From Marinactinospora thermotolerans DSM 45154 (GTDB lineage Bacteria > Actinomycetota > Actinomycetes > Streptosporangiales > Streptosporangiaceae), in the NCBI RefSeq assembly GCF_900167435.1, contig NZ_FUWS01000004.1:248001-312000 (forward strand): DNA of 64,000 nucleotides. The letters run 5' to 3'. Of this stretch, positions 17,683 to 24,772 are shown piece after piece. Position 1 is the stretch's first letter. Each line of letters begins with the position of its first letter. Below the pieces are notes generated by a model, which saw only the letters and a list, made by a program, of their open reading frames with translations, had not been told where the DNA came from and did not search any database. Position numbers and translations under genes: made by a program.

Positions 17683-18099
17683 TCACCCCTCGCGACGGCG
17701 GTCGTGCTCGCCCTGAGCGGTCAGGACCGCGGGCATGCTGGCCTCCAGATGGTCGATGAGGTCGATCAGCTTGGCGGCGGTGACGTGCCCGAGCCCGGTC
17801 AGGCTGTACTCGACCCGCGGAGGCATGACCGCGTGGACGTCGCGGCGGACGAAACCATCGCGCTCCAGGGCCTGGAGGGTCTGGGCCAGCATCTTCTCGC
17901 TCACGCCGTCCACCCGACGGCGCAGGGCGTTGAAACGGGCCGGACCCTGGTGGAGCCCGGCCATCACCAGGACCCCCCAGCGGCCGGTGAGGTGCTCCAG
18001 GACGGTGCGCGAAGGGCAGGCCCGGGCGAACACGTCGAACTCCAGGTCGCCGGCGTACCGTTCCTCCCCGGTCTCCGACGACGTGATCGGTGCGTTCAT
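17683..18099 (-). CDS. HxlR family transcriptional regulator
   Basis: A 138-residue winged-helix protein. The block CPSRTVLEHLTGRWGVLVMA is the conserved HxlR start, with Cys in place for possible redox or electrophile sensing, followed by LHQGPARFNALRRRVDGVSE, KMLAQTLQALERDGFVRR and the wing VEYSLTGLG. A TAGTAT -10-like hexamer lies only about 7 bases before the ATG, suggesting a leaderless or near-leaderless transcript. HxlR genes are often divergent from a reductase they control; here the divergent side holds no gene, so the target may have been lost. Confidence 0.92.
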   Translation of the reverse strand: MNAPITSSETGEERYAGDLEFDVFARACPSRTVLEHLTGRWGVLVMAGLHQGPARFNALRRRVDGVSEKMLAQTLQALERDGFVRRDVHAVMPPRVEYSLTGLGHVTAAKLIDLIDHLEASMPAVLTAQGEHDRRREG

Positions 18100-18639
18100 G
18101 CCATCGATACTAGTGAATCAGCCAGTGCTGCATAAAAGACCGCGTTTTCTTTTCGAAAGTTCAAACCCCCTCACGACGTGCGTGTTCCCGTCGTCTCCCG
18201 CATCGGGAAGGGGTCGATGAGCGTCGTCACCGGAGCCGCCGGACGCGCCGCCCGCCCGGGGAACACCTGCGCGAAACCCCCGTTTCGAGCATTCCCCCAC
18301 TCCTACCGTCCGGGGCGGATCGATCGAGCTCCCCGCCGAGGAGCGGGACACCCGTCGCGGCCGAGCCCCCTCGCGCGCTCACCTGGACCGTTGCGACGCC
18401 GACCGACTCGGCTTGGCCGCGCAGCCGCCCACGGCCCGCGCGTTGGGCGTTCTCCGCGCCGACTGGGCGTGCCCCTCGGCAACGCCGTCGTCCATCTCGC
18501 CAGGCGGTTCGTGAGCGGCGGTCCCGAGCCGCCCTGCCGACGGCGCTTCGCCCTTCCCATCAAGGGACGCCCGACGCGAGACCGCCGCCGTTCGTGTTGC
18601 ACCCCGTCAACGGCTACCACCCGTTCCCGCCTCGCCCTG
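18100..18639. other. Gene-free region upstream of the HxlR gene
   Basis: About 540 bases. The first 80 bases are relatively A/T-rich and contain the HxlR promoter. The remainder is G/C-rich with only Arg/Pro-rich translations in all frames; nothing recognisable. Confidence 0.5.
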
Positions 18640-18689
18640 GATGTCAGTTTGATTTGACATTTCCATGGATGTCAATTCAAACTGACATC
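18640..18689. promoter_or_regulatory. Nested 50-bp palindrome before the HTH/Clp-N operon
   Basis: Outer perfect arms GATGTCAGTTTGA (18640-18652) and TCAAACTGACATC (18677-18689) enclose inner arms TTGACAT/ATGTCAA, so TGTCA appears four times in alternating orientation. It ends immediately before the first possible ATG of the HTH gene at 18690. The TTGACA units could also serve as -35 elements in both directions. Likely operator for the small HTH protein. Confidence 0.75.
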
Positions 18690-18893
18690 ATGTCCGCGAA
18701 TCGTCCGTCTTCCATATCGATGTCAGAAGATCCCGCGAAGGGCCTGTGGGCGGTGCTGGCCCTGCGGCGGCTCGCCGAACGCATGGAGGCCAATCACGTG
18801 GCCGCCGCTCGACGGGCGGGCTGGTCCTGGCAGCAGATCGGTGACGCCCTGGGCGTCACCCGCCAGTCCATTCACAACAAGTACGGGAAGTGA
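18690..18893 (+). CDS. Small helix-turn-helix protein
   Basis: A protein of 67 residues from ATG 18690, or 57 from ATG 18720; neither start has a Shine-Dalgarno, so a leaderless message is possible. The C-terminal half is an HTH: RRAGWSWQQIGDALGVTRQS followed by IHNKYGK. Small HTH proteins of this kind occur directly upstream of stand-alone Clp-N proteins in actinomycetes and probably regulate the pair. The nested palindrome touching its 5' end is the obvious binding site. Seven bases separate it from the Clp-N gene. Confidence 0.8.
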   Translation: MSANRPSSISMSEDPAKGLWAVLALRRLAERMEANHVAAARRAGWSWQQIGDALGVTRQSIHNKYGK

Positions 18894-18900
18894 GGCGGCC

Positions 18901-19359
18901 ATGGTGAGAACAAAACCGCAGTCCGGCATGGGCCAGGTGTATTTGGACGCCAACACCGAGGCCCTGCGCAGAGGCGACCGCAAGGTGAGCACCGAGCACG
19001 TGCTCCTGGCGCTGCTGACCGACCCCGGTTCGGCCACCGCCCGGGCTCTAGGAGTGAGCCTGGACGCCGCGCGCGAGGCGCTGGAGAACCTGGACCGGGA
19101 TGCGCTGGCGTCGGCAGGGGTCCACGCGGCATCCGCCGGCCCGGTCTTTCCCGGCCGGGAACGCGACCGTCTCCCGCTGACCCCGGCGGCCAAGGCGGTC
19201 TTCACCGGCCTGGGCGAACAGGCGGGCCGGGAGCGGATCGGTCTCCAGCATGTGCTGCTCGGTCTGCTGTCGCGTCGGCGCCCTGACCCCGCGGCGGTCC
19301 TGCTGGACGCGCTCGGAGTGGACCGCACCGCCGTCCGCGCGCGATTGGGCCGGGGCTGA
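18901..19359 (+). CDS. Stand-alone Clp-N (ClpA/C repeat) domain protein
   Basis: A 152-residue protein made of two Clp-N repeats: YLDANTEALRRGDRKVSTEH with VLLALLTDPGSATARALGVS, and FTGLGEQAGRERIGLQHVLL with GLLSRRRPDPAAVLLDALGV. There is no AAA+ module, so it may act as an adaptor, an inhibitor, or a decoy for Clp substrates/adaptors. ATG at 18901 follows GAGGCGG. It lies between the HTH gene and an alpha/beta hydrolase gene 6 bases downstream in one operon. Confidence 0.88.
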   Translation: MVRTKPQSGMGQVYLDANTEALRRGDRKVSTEHVLLALLTDPGSATARALGVSLDAAREALENLDRDALASAGVHAASAGPVFPGRERDRLPLTPAAKAVFTGLGEQAGRERIGLQHVLLGLLSRRRPDPAAVLLDALGVDRTAVRARLGRG

Positions 19360-19365
19360 GACGCG

Positions 19366-20229
19366 ATGGGCGCCGCGGCGGAATCCTCCTGCCAGACCGG
19401 GACGGTGACCTCCCACGACGGCACCGTCATCGGCTATCGCCGATTCGGGACGGGGCCCGGGGTCGTGCTGATGCACGGGTCGATGATGTCCTCCCACAAC
19501 TTCATGCGGCTGGGCGCGGCGCTCAGCGGCGATTTCACCGTCTATCTGCCTGACCGCCGGGGCCGGGGAATGAGCGACCCGTACGGACCGGACTTCACGC
19601 TGCGGCATGCCGCCGAGGACGTGCGGGCCCTGATGGAGCAGACCGGGGCGCGCAACGTCTTCGGCCTCAGCGCCGGCGCGATCCCGATCCTGCGGTGGGC
19701 GCTGACCTGCCCCGAAGAACACAGAATCGCCCTCTACGAGCCGCCACTGCCGGTCGGCGACCACTCTCCGGTGGCGTGGCTCGCCCGCTACGAGCGGGAG
19801 ATGGCCCAAGGGCGGCCGGGGGCCGCGCTGGTGACCGTCGCCAAGGGCACCAACGACGACGCGTGGATGATCCGGATGCTGCCCCGGGCCGTCCTGGTAC
19901 CGCTCATGAGCCTGGGAATGCGCGCTCAAGCCCGGCGACCCGACGGCGAGGTGCCCCTTATCGACCTCATCCCCACCATGCGTCAGGAAGCCCGTCTCGT
20001 TCTCGACGCCACCGACCTGATCTCCGCGGCCACCACCGTACGGGCCGAGGTCCTTCTGCTCGGCGGTGGCAGGAGCGCGCGGCCCTTCAAGGACGCGCTG
20101 GGCGCCCTGCACGCCGCCATCCCGTCCGCCCAGCGGGTGGAACTGCCCCGCCTGGGCCACCTGGCCGCCGACAATGGCGGCCGGCCGGAGCTCGTCGCGC
20201 AACGGTTGCGGTGCTTCTTCCATGGCTGA
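19366..20229 (+). CDS. Alpha/beta hydrolase
   Basis: A 287-residue hydrolase. VVLMHGSMMSSHNF gives the oxyanion segment, YLPDRRGRGMSDPYG the strand-4 motif, VFGLSAGAIPIL the nucleophile elbow (Ser in GLSAG) and LGHLAADN the terminal His. Cap residues are unlike common haloalkane dehalogenases or lactonases, so substrate is open. It starts 6 bases after the Clp-N gene and overlaps the glycosidase-like gene by 8 bases, so all four genes are probably one transcript. Confidence 0.87.
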   Translation: MGAAAESSCQTGTVTSHDGTVIGYRRFGTGPGVVLMHGSMMSSHNFMRLGAALSGDFTVYLPDRRGRGMSDPYGPDFTLRHAAEDVRALMEQTGARNVFGLSAGAIPILRWALTCPEEHRIALYEPPLPVGDHSPVAWLARYEREMAQGRPGAALVTVAKGTNDDAWMIRMLPRAVLVPLMSLGMRAQARRPDGEVPLIDLIPTMRQEARLVLDATDLISAATTVRAEVLLLGGGRSARPFKDALGALHAAIPSAQRVELPRLGHLAADNGGRPELVAQRLRCFFHG

Positions 20230-21592
20230 GGCCGGACCGGGCCGAACGGCCGAACCGGTACGGCCCCGCCGTGGTTTCCCGGAGGGCTACCTCTGGGGTG
20301 CCGGGACGTCGGCGCTGCAACACGAAGGCTCCCCCCTCGCGGACGGGGCGGGGCAGTCGATCATGTACCGCTGGGCGCACACCCCGGGGCGGGTGCCCGC
20401 CGGCCAGGACTTCGACGTCTCGGCCGACTTCTACCGCCGCTTCCGCGACGACGTCCGGCTCATGCGCCAGATCGGGCTGCGCGCCTACAACTTCTCGACG
20501 GCCTGGTCACGAATAGTCCCTGACGGCAGGGGGCGGATCAACCCGCGCGGACTCGACTTCTATGACGCGCTGGTCGACACGCTGCTGGAAGCCGAAATCG
20601 CGCCCTTGTGCAACCTGTACGTCTTCGATCATCCGGCCGAGCTGGAGGATCGGGGCGGTTGGCTCAATCGGGACATGGCCCGATGGTTCAGCGACTACGC
20701 CTCCGTCGTCTACGAGCGGCTGGGCGATCGGGTCCAGTACTGGACGACCATGTGCGAGCCGCGTTTTCTCAGCCATGTCGGCCATGTCGTCGGCTCGCAC
20801 CCGCCGGAGAAGACCGATATCACCGGTGGTCTGCGCGTCCTGCACCATCTCCTGCTCGGTCAGGGCCACGCGGTCCAGGCGTTTCGGGCCGGCGGGGCCA
20901 AGGGCCGGATCGGCGGCCAGCATCTCCTCATCCCGGTCGCCGCCGCCTCGGACGACGAGCGTGACATCGCCGCGGCCGAGCGGGTCGACGCCTATCTCAA
21001 CCTCAGCGCGCTCGATCCGCAATGGCGGGGCGCCTATCCTCAGGTGCTCATCGATTGGTATGGCGCCGCCTGGCCGGCTGACGGGGTAGGCGATCACGAC
21101 CTGGAGACCATCGCCGCGCCAGTGGACTTCCTGGGCGTGGACTATTACCTGAGCCTGACCGTCCGACACTCCGTGTCCGATCCGACGGGGCTCTTCAACG
21201 CCGGCCTCCAGATGGCCCCGGTCGCCGGCCGAACCGACGCGGACGGGTTGCGCACCGCTCTCAACTGGGCCCGCGATCACTACCGCAATCCCCCCATCCT
21301 GCTCTTGGAGGTCGGCCAAGCAGGCCACGACACCGTGAACGGCGACGAGGTCGATGACGTCGCCCGACAGCTTCACCTTCACGACATGCTGGCCGGAACC
21401 CACCAGGCGATACAGGACGGCGTCGATGTCCGCGGAAGCTTCGTCTGGTCCCTGCTCGACGGATGGGAGTTCGGCAAGGGGCTGTCAGAGCGGTACGGAC
21501 TCGTCCACGTCGACTACCGAACCCAGCGCCGGACCGTGAAGAGATCCGGGCGCTGGTATCGCCGAACGATCGCCCGCAACGGATGGGGATGA
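20222..21592 (+). CDS. Atypical glycoside hydrolase family 1 protein
   Basis: A 456-residue (beta/alpha)8 protein of normal GH1 length: FPEGYLWGAGTSALQHEG at the N-terminus, YNFSTAWSRIVPDG, GGWLNRDMARWFSDYA, and SLLDGWEFGKGLSERYGLVH near the end. Both catalytic Glu are present (Glu179 in TMCEPRF and Glu363 in LLEVGQAG). However, TxNEP reads TMCEP (Asn to Cys), TENG reads LEVG, and the sugar-binding YHWDLP loop reads YVFDHP. Substrate is therefore likely not an ordinary beta-glucoside, or turnover may be impaired. ATG 20222 overlaps the hydrolase gene by 8 bases. Confidence 0.88.
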   Translation: MAEAGPGRTAEPVRPRRGFPEGYLWGAGTSALQHEGSPLADGAGQSIMYRWAHTPGRVPAGQDFDVSADFYRRFRDDVRLMRQIGLRAYNFSTAWSRIVPDGRGRINPRGLDFYDALVDTLLEAEIAPLCNLYVFDHPAELEDRGGWLNRDMARWFSDYASVVYERLGDRVQYWTTMCEPRFLSHVGHVVGSHPPEKTDITGGLRVLHHLLLGQGHAVQAFRAGGAKGRIGGQHLLIPVAAASDDERDIAAAERVDAYLNLSALDPQWRGAYPQVLIDWYGAAWPADGVGDHDLETIAAPVDFLGVDYYLSLTVRHSVSDPTGLFNAGLQMAPVAGRTDADGLRTALNWARDHYRNPPILLLEVGQAGHDTVNGDEVDDVARQLHLHDMLAGTHQAIQDGVDVRGSFVWSLLDGWEFGKGLSERYGLVHVDYRTQRRTVKRSGRWYRRTIARNGWG

Positions 21593-21604
21593 CCCCGCCG
21601 CCCC

Positions 21605-22456
21605 TCACCCTCCCGGTCCGGCGGGGCCACGGGGCCGCCAGCGTCCGAACCCGCCCTCGCTGTCGATGACCTGGCCGGTGATCCAGCCCGCCTCGTCGGT
21701 GACCAGCCAGGCGATGAGCCGCGCCGCGTCGTCCGGCCGCCCGTAGCGTCCGAACGGGAACATCGGCGCGACCAGCTCCCACATCTCCTCCGTGAGGTAG
21801 CCGGTGTCGACCGGTCCGGGATTGACCGTGTTGAGGCGGATCCCCTGATCGGCGAGCTGGTCGGCGAGGGTGACCGTGACACCGGCGAGGGCGGCCTTGG
21901 CCGCCGCGTAGGCCACCTCGCCGGGCAGCGGTCCCAGGTGCTGACCAGAGGTCATGAAGACGATCGCGCCTCCGGGACGGCCGTCGTGCCGGGAGGCGAA
22001 CGCCTGTGCCAGCAGGATGCACGAGCGGGCGTCCACGGCCCAGTGCCGGTCCAGCACGGCCGCCTCCAGGCCCCCCAACGCGGCGTCGTCGCCGCTGAGC
22101 GCGTGGTTGCAGACGAGGACGTCCAGCCGGCCGAACTCCGCCACCGCCATGTCGACGATCCGCTGCGGCGCGTCCGGATCGCTCAGGTCGGCGTGGGCGT
22201 CGGCCACGCCGACCCCATTCGCGTCCGCGTGCGCCCGCACGCCCGCTACCACCGCGTCGAGGTCGTCGGCGCCCCATTCCTGGTCCAGGTCGTGGGGCCG
22301 GTAGTGGTGGAGGAGCACGTTCGCCCCGTAGGCCGCCAGGCGGCAGGCGATGGCGTAGCCGATGCCGGCCCGCCTGCTCACACCGGTGACCAGCGCGGTC
22401 CTGCCACGCAGCGGGTGGGGTTCGCGCCCCTTCGGAGTGCGTGGTCGTTCGCTCAT
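21605..22456 (-). CDS. SDR family oxidoreductase
   Basis: A 283-residue short-chain dehydrogenase. The cofactor loop is TALVTGVSRRAGIGYAIA, unusual in having an insertion (GVSRRAGIG), the NNAG motif reads VCNHALSG, and the active site is MTSGQHLGPLPGEVAYAAAK with Tyr and Lys spaced normally (YAAAK). VNPGPVDTGYLTEEM is typical of this actinomycete subgroup, which often resembles bacterial 3-oxoacyl-ACP reductases. Start at ATG 22456 gives the conventional N-terminus; the ribosome site is weak. A clear paralogue lies at 39694-40488. Confidence 0.88.
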   Translation of the reverse strand: MSERPRTPKGREPHPLRGRTALVTGVSRRAGIGYAIACRLAAYGANVLLHHYRPHDLDQEWGADDLDAVVAGVRAHADANGVGVADAHADLSDPDAPQRIVDMAVAEFGRLDVLVCNHALSGDDAALGGLEAAVLDRHWAVDARSCILLAQAFASRHDGRPGGAIVFMTSGQHLGPLPGEVAYAAAKAALAGVTVTLADQLADQGIRLNTVNPGPVDTGYLTEEMWELVAPMFPFGRYGRPDDAARLIAWLVTDEAGWITGQVIDSEGGFGRWRPRGPAGPGG

Positions 22457-22642: not shown

Positions 22643-24772
22643 TCAGGGACGTTCGGGGGGAACCAGACCGGTGTGGGCGGCGCAGAAGGCGAGCACGTCC
22701 TCCTGCAGGCCGAGCCAGCGGTCCAGCGAACGCGCCCCGTGACCGACATCGGGCTCGCAGCGCAGGAGCACGGGCCGCCCGGAGCCGGTGGCGTGCTGAA
22801 GGGCGGCGGTCATCTTGCGGGTGTGCAGGGAGTCCACCCGAGGGTCGTGCCGGGGGCAGGTGAGCAGTACCGCCGGATAGGGCGTCCCGGGGCGGACCCG
22901 GTGGTAGGGCGAATAGGACAGCAGGGCGGCGCACTGCTCGGGATCCTCGACGGTGCCGAACTCGGCCGTCCACAGGTGACCGAGCCCGAAGTGCTGGTAG
23001 CGGGCCATGTCGGTGACCGCGTCGGAGCACACCGCAGCCGCGAACAGGTCGGGGGCCTGGGTGATGGCCGCGGCGACCATGAACCCGCTGTGGGAGGCGC
23101 CCCTGATCGCGAGACGCCCGGGGGTGGTCCGACCGTGGTCGATCAGCCAGCGCGCGGCGGAGAGGAAGTCGGCGATGGCGTTGGGCTTGTTGACGCCGCT
23201 GCCCGCGGCGTGCCAGTCGGTTCCCTCCTCACCGCCGCCTCGCACGGCCGCGGTCGCATACGCCCCGCCGGCCCTCACCCAGGCGGTGACGGCGGGGGAG
23301 TAGGCGGGAGGGGTGGAGGCGCCGAATCCACCGTAGGCGGTGAGCAGGGTCGGCCGCGGTCCACCCCCTCCTGGGGGACGGAGCAGGTGCATGCGGACCG
23401 GGGTCCCGTCGTGGGAGGCGTAGACGATCTGCTCGACCACGGGCCGGTGACCGGTCGCGCCCCGGCGGACCGTTGCCGTGTCCCCGGCCACGTCGGGGGG
23501 GACGGGGAAGCCCTCCGGGGGTTCGGGGACGCAGCGTCGCTCGGGCAGGTCGAAACGGTGGACGGCGGGCGGGGTGGTGAAGTCGGTGTAGCTGAACCAG
23601 GCGCTGGCGCCCCCTTCGGGCGGCGCGGTCAACCGGGAGACGTGCCCCGCCCCGGGCGGGGCGATGTCGGCGAGGAGGGTTCCCTCGGCCGTGTACAGCC
23701 GGAGTTCGCTCAAGCCGTGACGGTGGTGGGAGACGAGGAGGCGCGTCTGGGCCGTCGCGGGGTCGGTGAGCGTCACGCAGGCCGCCAGGACGCTGCCCGC
23801 CCTCTCCTCGACAACGGTCCGCCACGCCCGGTGGTGGGGGTCCGTGGCGGCGACGGCGCACATCCGCCCGAAAGGCGCCTCGGCGTCGGTGATGGCGTAC
23901 ATCCCGCCGTCGGGGGCGAACTTCAGCGCCGCGCGAGTGCCCTCGGACATGCCGTCGAAGACCGGGACCGGTTCCAACCCCTCTTCGGGGTGGTCGGGCA
24001 GGCGGACCAGCCACAGGAGGTTTCCCGAGGTGGCGCCCGGGGCTGCCGACAGCATCAGGTGACGTCCGTCGGGGCTGGTGGTGACGGAGAACTGGGGGAG
24101 GTCGGTGGCGAACAGGATCGGATCGTGGCGGGGGTCGGCGCCGATGCGGTGCAGGCGCAACCGCCGCCCGGCCCCGTCCTCGGGGGTCGACACGTAGAAG
24201 AAGCCGGTGCCGTCCGCCAGCCAGGCCACGGGGGTCGAGCGCCCCGGGGACAGGGAGGCGCCCACGGGTGTCCCCGTGGCGACGTCGAGCACCCGCAGAC
24301 GTGGCCGTTCGTCGCCTTTGCGGGTCGTCTGGTAGGCCACCAGGTCGCCCCCCGGGGAGGGGCGCCAGGCGTCAAGGGTCGTCGTTCCGTCGGCGTCGAA
24401 GTCGAGGGGGTCCAGCAGGACCCGGGACGGCCGGCCGGGATCGGCGACCATCAGGGCGGGCAGCCGGCGCCCCGGCTCGTGCCTGAGGAGGAAGCGGCGC
24501 CCGCGGCGCCACAGGGGCGGCGAGCTCACCGGCGAGAGGCTGCTCCCCACCCCCGCCGCGTCGCGAAGGAGCCTTCGCCAGGCCGCGCGATGCGGCCACG
24601 TGGGAGCGGCCTCGGCGAACAGCCGCTCCTGGTTCTCCAGCCAGGCCGCGCACTCGGGGCTGTGACCGTCCTCCAGCCATCGGTAGGGGTCGGCCACGGT
24701 GTGGCCGTGCAGGAGCTCGGTGACGGTGTCGCGGCGTGCGACGGCGGACGGCCGCGATGGGGCGTGGGTCAT
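22643..24772 (-). CDS. Prolyl oligopeptidase family serine peptidase (S9)
   Basis: A 709-residue S9A-type peptidase that cuts short peptides after proline. The N-terminal VADPYRWLEDGHSPECAAWL is the family start, residues 70-400 form the beta-propeller, and the catalytic domain includes LLTAYGGFGASTPPAYSPAV, AVRGGGEEGTDWHAAG, the nucleophile region AIRGASHSGFMVAAAITQAP, an Asp in HDPRVDSLHTRKM and the His in DVGHG. No signal peptide, so cytoplasmic. It is the last gene of a leftward unit preceded by two tiny ORFs. S9 peptidases can process ribosomal-peptide leaders, which makes the context notable. Confidence 0.92.
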   Translation of the reverse strand: MTHAPSRPSAVARRDTVTELLHGHTVADPYRWLEDGHSPECAAWLENQERLFAEAAPTWPHRAAWRRLLRDAAGVGSSLSPVSSPPLWRRGRRFLLRHEPGRRLPALMVADPGRPSRVLLDPLDFDADGTTTLDAWRPSPGGDLVAYQTTRKGDERPRLRVLDVATGTPVGASLSPGRSTPVAWLADGTGFFYVSTPEDGAGRRLRLHRIGADPRHDPILFATDLPQFSVTTSPDGRHLMLSAAPGATSGNLLWLVRLPDHPEEGLEPVPVFDGMSEGTRAALKFAPDGGMYAITDAEAPFGRMCAVAATDPHHRAWRTVVEERAGSVLAACVTLTDPATAQTRLLVSHHRHGLSELRLYTAEGTLLADIAPPGAGHVSRLTAPPEGGASAWFSYTDFTTPPAVHRFDLPERRCVPEPPEGFPVPPDVAGDTATVRRGATGHRPVVEQIVYASHDGTPVRMHLLRPPGGGGPRPTLLTAYGGFGASTPPAYSPAVTAWVRAGGAYATAAVRGGGEEGTDWHAAGSGVNKPNAIADFLSAARWLIDHGRTTPGRLAIRGASHSGFMVAAAITQAPDLFAAAVCSDAVTDMARYQHFGLGHLWTAEFGTVEDPEQCAALLSYSPYHRVRPGTPYPAVLLTCPRHDPRVDSLHTRKMTAALQHATGSGRPVLLRCEPDVGHGARSLDRWLGLQEDVLAFCAAHTGLVPPERP

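Follow-up and report, generated by a model that had tools for sequence, protein, structure and literature searches.

Gene organisation of the locus

The window (the whole stretch of DNA analysed, 64,000 nucleotides from Marinactinospora thermotolerans DSM 45154) contains a run of four genes directly preceded by two palindromes. Their positions in the window are as follows.

18642–18659, no strand assigned: predicted operator site 1, the 18-bp palindrome TGTCAGTTTGATTTGACA, found at the same place in relatives
18670–18687, no strand assigned: predicted operator site 2, the 18-bp palindrome TGTCAATTCAAACTGACA, found at the same place in relatives
18690–18893, plus strand: HTH gene, 67 aa, with its start codon two bases past operator site 2
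18901–19359, plus strand: Clp-N gene, 152 aa, a double Clp-N without an AAA+ module (Pfam Clp_N, 2.8e-14)
19366–20229, plus strand: alpha/beta hydrolase gene, 287 aa, with a GLSAG nucleophile motif (Pfam Abhydrolase_6, 4.2e-14)
20222–21592, plus strand: GH1 gene, 456 aa (Pfam Glyco_hydro_1, 5.8e-119)

Reading of the sequence bore out the four genes and the spacings of 7, 6 and −8 bases given in an earlier note on this DNA. A simple scan of positions 18000–21900 revealed no sigma-70-type promoter, and the single terminator-like site in this range (20198–20210; 1.2 expected in shuffled sequences) was located inside the hydrolase gene. The case for co-transcription therefore rests on gene spacing and overlap, which support the single transcript that had been considered likely; the HTH, Clp-N, hydrolase and GH1 genes probably form one operon. 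Regarding an anti-phage role, PADLOC returned no match for the four window proteins, nor for L138 or L118.

Conservation of the gene pair and its probable operator

The comparison set comprised 80 named loci from the nearest relatives; as these loci are related, the counts below are not independent. An HTH gene followed by a Clp-N gene was found in 78 of the 80, supporting the earlier description of the pair as a recurrent control unit, and the other two loci (L082 and L090) end at contig edges. The same order was observed in all 30 of the best loci from a class-wide search for the HTH family. A surface-level literature search found nothing on a split HTH/Clp-N pair or its links to enzymes.

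The palindrome previously noticed at 18640–18689 is real and consists of two 18-bp palindromes. Its general form, a tandem palindrome YGTCA-N8-TGACR directly before the HTH start, was present in 70 of the 80 named loci; eight loci carried one site and two carried none, compared with two sites in 0 and one site in 1 of 3769 random 160-nt windows. In 74 of the 80 loci, a start codon (the one nearest the operator being counted) lies 3–4 nt beyond the final base of site 2. TGTCA-N8-TGACA has four occurrences in the 5.66-Mb genome, two of them at this operon. A looser tandem pair was counted twice; judging by the locus sequences, these pairs lie at this operon and upstream of a lone Clp_N gene. At the class level, 155 of 394 genomes contained the tandem pattern and the reversed control gave zero among the rows listed, indicating that the pattern exceeds chance. 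Site 1 is missing in the nearest relative, Nonomuraea deserti. Comparison of relatives thus supports the suggestion that the palindromes are the probable operator of the HTH protein.

The operator also appears to overlap the promoter. TTGACA (18654–18659), the last six bases of site 1, lies at the expected −35 position, and CAAACT (18678–18683) in site 2 occupies the place of a TANNNT hexamer found in many relatives. By analogy only, this poor, weak hexamer may serve as the −10 box of the window.

Relationship of the two proteins to ClpC2

According to the report on mycobacterial ClpC2, this single protein joins a helical N-domain to a Clp-N part and keeps its own promoter repressed unless the antibiotic cyclomarin is bound; its operators are tandem CGTCAAC-n5-GTTGACG sites over the −35/−10 region, and its message is leaderless (PMC10030653). 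Both the architecture and the operator layout of the window pair match this autorepressor and antibiotic sensor, to which the earlier note made no reference, and the purpose of the pair, which that note had called unknown, can be sharpened to that extent. In addition to the split pair, this genome encodes a 247-aa fused ClpC2 that has two sites of the ClpC2 operator form.

The HTH protein scored below the curated cut-off of Pfam HTH_23 (6.9e-5; 23.0 vs. 24.6 bits), and its profile (A1) matched the ClpC2 N-domain 8ADA with an E-value of 0.0087. Alignment with this genome's own ClpC2 by hhalign gave 96.2% (E 2.2e-9). The salt bridge of the ClpC2 dimer, D46–R57, maps to E30–R41 of the HTH protein, where position 30 is Glu in 79 and Asp in 2 of 81 sequences and position 41 is Arg in all 81. 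The reading frames end at 59–82 aa in all 80 named loci. When the structure model was compared with the PDB, Z reached 4.9 (Fis), and 8ADA was not among the 50 matches listed. Taken together, the sequence features suggest that the 67-aa protein probably forms homodimers and supplies the DNA-binding half of a split repressor resembling ClpC2. Separately, the HTH profile also matched designed repeat proteins, which we ascribed to composition.

At E 1e-6, matches to the HTH family turned up in 213 of the 394 genomes sampled from the class, some of these matches lacking Clp-N. Among more distant HTHs with tandem sites, 14 of 26 loci had no Clp-N, and the idea that the HTH is always accompanied by Clp-N was therefore dropped. 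Since these 14 loci keep the operator, it is probably the HTH that reads the DNA. Together with another HTH gene in this genome (L183), which lacks both Clp-N and a tandem site, they indicate that Clp-N is not needed everywhere.

The published model assigns DNA binding in ClpC2 to the Clp-N part (sections 11 and 13), and the N-domain crystal spans residues 4–72 (section 7; PMC10030653). In our alignment, this crystal ends at HTH profile position 56, short of the final HTH helix, which spans residues 58–65 in the model; this calls the proposed location of DNA binding into question. The two arginines to which binding was assigned are both basic in 7 of the 80 split Clp-N proteins, and at least one is basic in 43.

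The model of the Clp-N protein (pLDDT 89.9) matched the ClpC1 N-domain 8b9u with a Z of 16.3 over 129 residues and ClpC2 8ad9 with a Z of 12.0, and hhalign gave 98.2% against the C-terminal part of this genome's ClpC2. It is possible that this protein is the ligand-sensing half of the repressor. The cyclomarin contacts F2, F80 and E89 (ClpC1 numbering) are V, L and T in the window protein; among the 80 split Clp-N proteins, window included, F2 is retained in 39, F80 in 18 and E89 in 19. Cyclomarin is thus an unlikely ligand of the window Clp-N, and the ligand should differ.

Enzymes and neighbouring genes

The hydrolase gene was found behind the HTH/Clp-N pair in five genomes (this one and four more), all in one clade. 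Among the loci examined, a GH1 gene behind the pair recurred solely in N. deserti, where it is truncated. The linkage of both enzymes to the pair elsewhere, which the earlier note had proposed to check, thus recurs for the hydrolase within one clade and hardly for GH1; eight of the loci of hydrolase homologues that were examined, one of them (G443) at 66%, were without the pair. As judged from these sequences, the hydrolase is an old partner of HTH/Clp-N and GH1 is a recent addition.

Both catalytic glutamates of the GH1 protein (E179 and E363) are present. In comparison with 22 of 22 homologues, however, His is changed to V134, Trp to F135, Asn to C178, Asn to D307, Asn to V364 and Trp to F417; we take the altered His, Trp and Asn positions to be conserved glycone-pocket residues. 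The protein also fell below the NCBIfam beta-glucosidase cut-off (430.1 vs. 478.5 bits). Given the changed pocket residues, its identification as a typical beta-glucosidase was rejected.

HTH and Clp-N might instead form a self-contained autoregulated pair, with the hydrolase and GH1 as downstream passengers that are merely read through. Most of the 80 loci have no called same-strand gene within 150 bp behind Clp-N, and the confinement of GH1 to two close genomes, decayed in one, also fits this explanation. Against it, the hydrolase is retained in five of the six rows of a clade with starred support of 99, down to 45% identity, the genes are joined by short gaps and an 8-base overlap, and dN/dS relative to N. 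deserti is below 0.4 in all four genes (0.16–0.37; the GH1 value covers 136 codons). We regard mere read-through as improbable.

Other loci pair the unit with different genes. An FAD monooxygenase gene lies divergently across the operator in 10 of the 80 loci and was found three times elsewhere in 1.25 Mb of flanks, although the queries were taken from adjacent copies, which favours detection of adjacent ones. On the tree, the FAD label needs eight changes, at least four of which are forced by starred branches. In other loci, the unit faces ABC ATPases. The enzymes are optional, because 57 of the 80 tree rows carry no FAD, hydrolase or ABC label. A reverse promoter or third site was present in 12 of 21 loci with divergent FAD, ABC or DUF genes vs. 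6 of 65 others, in classes defined after the data had been seen; locus L071, where no HTH was found, counts against this result.

Proposed mechanism and its implications

Comparison of sequences supplies the pairing in near relatives, the operator and its position, the homology with ClpC2 and the repeated enzyme or transporter neighbourhood. On balance, we lean towards HTH and Clp-N being a split ClpC2-like autorepressor that acts as a ligand-sensing switch for detoxifying enzymes. By analogy with ClpC2, we infer repression, ligand sensing and derepression of the operon. The 67-aa HTH protein, as a dimer, would occupy the two palindromes overlapping the promoter and keep the operon off. Clp-N, translated from the same, almost leaderless transcript, would sense a peptide-like or other natural product; binding of this ligand would loosen the HTH from DNA and turn the operon on. 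Extra Clp-N could then mop up the compound, and the hydrolase, with the modified GH1 in this lineage, might degrade or alter it; any substrates named for these two enzymes would be guesses. Of what was suggested earlier, a link to detoxification is possible, whereas nothing in this analysis points to a link to proteolysis, nor to Clp-N serving as a substrate or adaptor for the two enzymes.

A proteostasis switch seems unlikely. In that scenario, Clp-N would respond to ClpC load or adaptor proteins, or deliver the HTH for degradation by ClpC, with the enzymes being stress genes controlled by the switch. In its favour, Clp-N shares its fold with ClpC N-domains, and the acidic residue of the first repeat is kept (Glu in 42 and Asp in 37 of 80). 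This residue is presumably the phospho-arginine site, with E106 as its second-repeat counterpart. E106, however, is Glu in only 5 of 80 and Gln in the window, and a neighbourhood that includes FAD monooxygenases and ABC genes is not a typical proteostasis set. According to section 13 of the ClpC2 report (PMC10030653), heat induces ClpC2 mildly, and its authors consider competition for ClpC substrates; both points favour such a switch.

The split-repressor reading proposes a testable job for the gene pair, with the probable operator given to the base, and marks the adjoining enzymes as candidates for acting on sensed compounds. More tentatively, and with the balance somewhat against it, Clp-N domains might be ligand sensors lifted from the proteolysis machinery that, in trans with a small HTH, act as widespread natural-product-responsive repressors in Actinomycetota, wired several times to inactivating enzymes or exporters. 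The window's hydrolase and remodelled GH1 would then destroy the sensed compound, and HTH plus operator would be the older core, also found alone beside ABC exporters. It would follow from this reading that fused ClpC2, too, recognises DNA mainly via its HTH, contrary to the published Clp-N proposal.

Comparison with known systems

Among the enzymes, the GH1 protein shares the whole-length fold and catalytic glutamates of GH1 beta-glucosidases and differs in the glycone pocket. NCBIfam rif_monoox was the best match for three of six divergent enzymes tested and the second or third for the other three; these neighbouring-locus enzymes score 45–360 against an 800-bit cut-off, and, being far below it, are not called rifampin monooxygenases. 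The window Clp-N has the same fold as the N-terminal domain of ClpC1/ClpC and is free-standing, without ATPase modules; ClpC1 is reported to be under study as an antibiotic target. The closest counterpart is ClpC2 (Rv2667 and orthologues), which shares with the window pair a related N-domain, a C-terminal double Clp-N without an AAA+ module and tandem GTCA...TGAC palindromes adjoining the start codon. Unlike ClpC2, which is one polypeptide, the pair is encoded by two genes 7 bases apart, its palindromes separate GTCA from TGAC by N8 instead of N9, its Clp-N lacks the cyclomarin-contact residues, and enzyme genes lie inside the same operon.

The operon and its predicted operator

Four closely spaced genes, separated by 7, 6 and -8 bases, occupy positions 18690-21592 on the plus strand of the window and are preceded by a predicted operator of two palindromes:

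18642-18659 and 18670-18687, no strand assigned: operator sites 1 and 2, predicted 18-bp palindromes TGTCA-N8-TGACA
18690-18893, plus strand: first gene, HTH protein of 67 aa
18901-19359, plus strand: second gene, double Clp-N protein of 152 aa
19366-20229, plus strand: third gene, alpha/beta hydrolase by domain search
20222-21592, plus strand: fourth gene, GH1-fold protein by domain search

The upstream neighbour is a divergent HxlR-type regulator 590 bp away, and a convergent SDR gene lies 12 bases downstream. Two genes downstream of the operon, a prolyl-oligopeptidase-like gene was found on the minus strand (22643-24772).

Site 2 is followed by the HTH start codon after two bases. The motif TGTCA-N8-TGACA occurs at four places in the whole genome, two of them being this operator. 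A looser tandem pattern was counted twice in the genome, and the sequences assign it to the window operon and to the region upstream of a lone Clp_N gene (contig C26); across the class it was present in 155 of 394 genomes, with 0 reversed controls among the matches listed. Scanning named genomes confirmed 261 loci, and the best 80 of these served as a sample of near relatives. Two sites lay upstream of the HTH in 70 of these 80, one in eight and none in L078 and L095, whereas random windows from the same loci contained two sites in 0/3769 and one in 1/3769. In 74 of the 80, the start codon, chosen as that nearest to the operator, lay 3-4 nt beyond the final base of site 2. The predicted operator is a firm comparative fact. 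Within the operator stretch, TTGACR followed after 16-19 bases by TANNNT was found in 46/86 loci (sum over classes); the second hexamer in the window is CAAACT, and a simple scan of the window operator region called no promoter there.

The lone Clp_N gene (C26, ca. 20.7 kb; L194 1456-1902) has tandem GTCA-N8-TGAC sites upstream and no adjoining HTH, and it retains the cyclomarin-pocket residues F2 and F80. It is possibly controlled by the same repressor as the window operon.

Pairing of HTH and Clp-N

Clp-N was the next gene after the HTH in 78 of the best 80 of 261 loci, the other two (L082, L090) ending at contig edges; the sequence comparison makes this pairing firm among near relatives. 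The pair was also seen on contigs labelled as Acidobacteria MAG (L099, L108) that fall among actinobacterial relatives, reflecting either mis-binning or transfer.

Among 30 loci fetched for the tandem pattern, 26 carried an HTH of the window family within ca. 120 bases, and none was present nearby in L203, L217, L221 and L227. A separate Clp-N gene accompanied the HTH in 12 of the 26, and two profiles detected none in the other 14, whose HTHs were more distant (39-70 bits). At least eight of these 14 adjoin Pfam-confirmed ABC transporter genes (L204, L205, L206, L209, L210, L211, L212 and L215); many of the distant HTH relatives having a tandem operator without Clp-N (L201, L204-L216) lie beside such genes. 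Because the operator is kept where Clp-N is missing, it goes with the HTH and not with Clp-N, which supports the HTH as the DNA reader and counts against Clp-N being needed everywhere. The HTH is likely to be a DNA-binding repressor, and a role of Clp-N as its sensor is slightly favoured, though less so in view of the loci that lack Clp-N. A second HTH in the window genome (L183) has neither Clp-N nor a tandem site. At L071 (genome G050), a Clp-N gene lies directly behind the operator with an FAD monooxygenase near, and a search for an HTH found none.

Genes linked to the pair

The hydrolase follows the pair in five genomes: the window genome, Nonomuraea deserti (84% identity to the window protein), Nocardiopsis eucommiae (split in two, perhaps by a frameshift, the pieces being 69 and 63% identical), G338 (59% in one comparison and 62% in another) and Nocardiopsis sp. 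MG754419 (45%). These loci fall within a clade of six (support 99*), whose sixth member, Nocardiopsis salina, has no hydrolase within 1.7 kb behind its Clp-N. Matches at E 1e-35 or better occurred in 10/394 genomes, four of them beside the pair; no pair was found within 1.5 kb of eight further hydrolase loci, including G443 (66%), two weaker matches being left out.

Among the loci examined, GH1 follows the pair only in the window genome and N. deserti, which belong to the same family group. The N. deserti copy is a remnant matching residues 1-144, and operator site 1 is lost there too. dN/dS between the two was 0.37 for the HTH, 0.25 for Clp-N, 0.30 for the hydrolase and 0.16 for the GH1 remnant. 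In 120 relatives, the best GH1 outside these loci showed 53% identity in a partial alignment and 46-47% at full length. The window GH1 retains both catalytic glutamates. Of 142 alignment columns that are conserved in 22 homologues it deviates at 41, among them three positions that in GH1 enzymes belong to the pocket: Val134 replaces His, Phe135 replaces Trp and Cys178 replaces Asn. Whether the operon's enzymes serve detoxification appears evenly balanced. Our literature search found no paper on the split HTH/Clp-N pair or its enzyme links.

An FAD monooxygenase gene lay on the opposite strand across the operator, starting ca. 55-115 bp away, in 10 of the best 80 of 261 loci, compared with three such genes elsewhere in 1.25 Mb of flanks, a comparison biased toward adjacent genes by queries taken from adjacent copies. 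Four further cases occurred in other relatives (L067, L069, L070 and L071). In an 80-row tree, eight changes were needed to account for the FAD label, at least four of them forced by starred branches; 57 rows lacked FAD, hydrolase and ABC labels. The best solved relatives of the L143 and L113 enzymes were a Baeyer-Villiger monooxygenase, polyketide oxygenases and rifampin monooxygenases. Identification as rifampin monooxygenase was rejected, six FAD enzymes scoring well under the NCBIfam rif_monoox cut-off. A divergent ABC ATPase was present in four loci (L120, L122, L124 and L127), three with a third operator site. A reverse promoter or third site accompanied divergent FAD, ABC or DUF genes in 12/21 loci vs 6/65 others, in classes defined after seeing the data and among related loci.

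In Streptomycetaceae, a DUF5990-type gene diverges from the pair (L102, L118, L123; Pfam match checked for L118 only). A 361-376-aa protein lies downstream of the pair in two genomes (L065 403-1488, L138 2784-3914); neither matched Pfam, and that of L138 also matched nothing in NCBIfam or PADLOC.

Comparison with ClpC2

Mycobacterial ClpC2, as described in PMC10030653, is a single protein that dimerises through a helical N-domain and binds cyclomarin A with a C-terminal Clp-N part. It is an autorepressor acting at CGTCAAC-n5-GTTGACG sites, two in many species, over -35 and -10, and a leaderless message was suggested; cyclomarin relieves repression, after which the protein sequesters the drug (PMC10030653).

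Its authors assign DNA binding to the Clp-N part, since R185A/R189A binds less well; the matching mutant in complemented M. smegmatis raised clpC2 mRNA 2.0-fold (PMC10030653). In the split Clp-N of the best 80 of 261 loci, both corresponding positions are basic in seven and one in 43. The split family keeps HTH and operator, the latter even where Clp-N is missing. The N-domain crystal covers residues 4-72 (PMC10030653) and, as aligned to the window HTH profile and model, ends before the last HTH helix; the term helix-turn-helix is absent from the main text of that paper. The dimer mutant R57A increased expression 4.6-fold, and the authors point to this mutant and to the isolated C-terminal part as support for the dimer contributing to tight binding (PMC10030653). 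The R57A data fit a palindrome read by HTH dimers, and both halves of ClpC2 may contact DNA.

The window genome also encodes a fused ClpC2 (L184 1405-2148) with two CGTCAAC-n5-GTTGACG-type sites. The HTH profile matched the ClpC2 N-domain crystal 8ADA (E 0.0087) and the N-part of this protein (96.2% probability), and the Clp-N profile matched its C-part (98.2%). The ClpC2 salt bridge D46-R57 aligns with E30-R41, acidic in 81/81 and Arg in 81/81 proteins, and the Clp-N model (pLDDT 89.9) aligned to ClpC1 (Z 16.3) and ClpC2 (Z 12.0). On these profile matches, the salt bridge and the model alignment, the pair is regarded as a split system whose working principle is probably ClpC2-like. It is not classed as ClpC2 because it comprises two genes and hence two polypeptides, whereas ClpC2 is one, and because the window Clp-N, unlike ClpC2, lacks the cyclomarin contacts.
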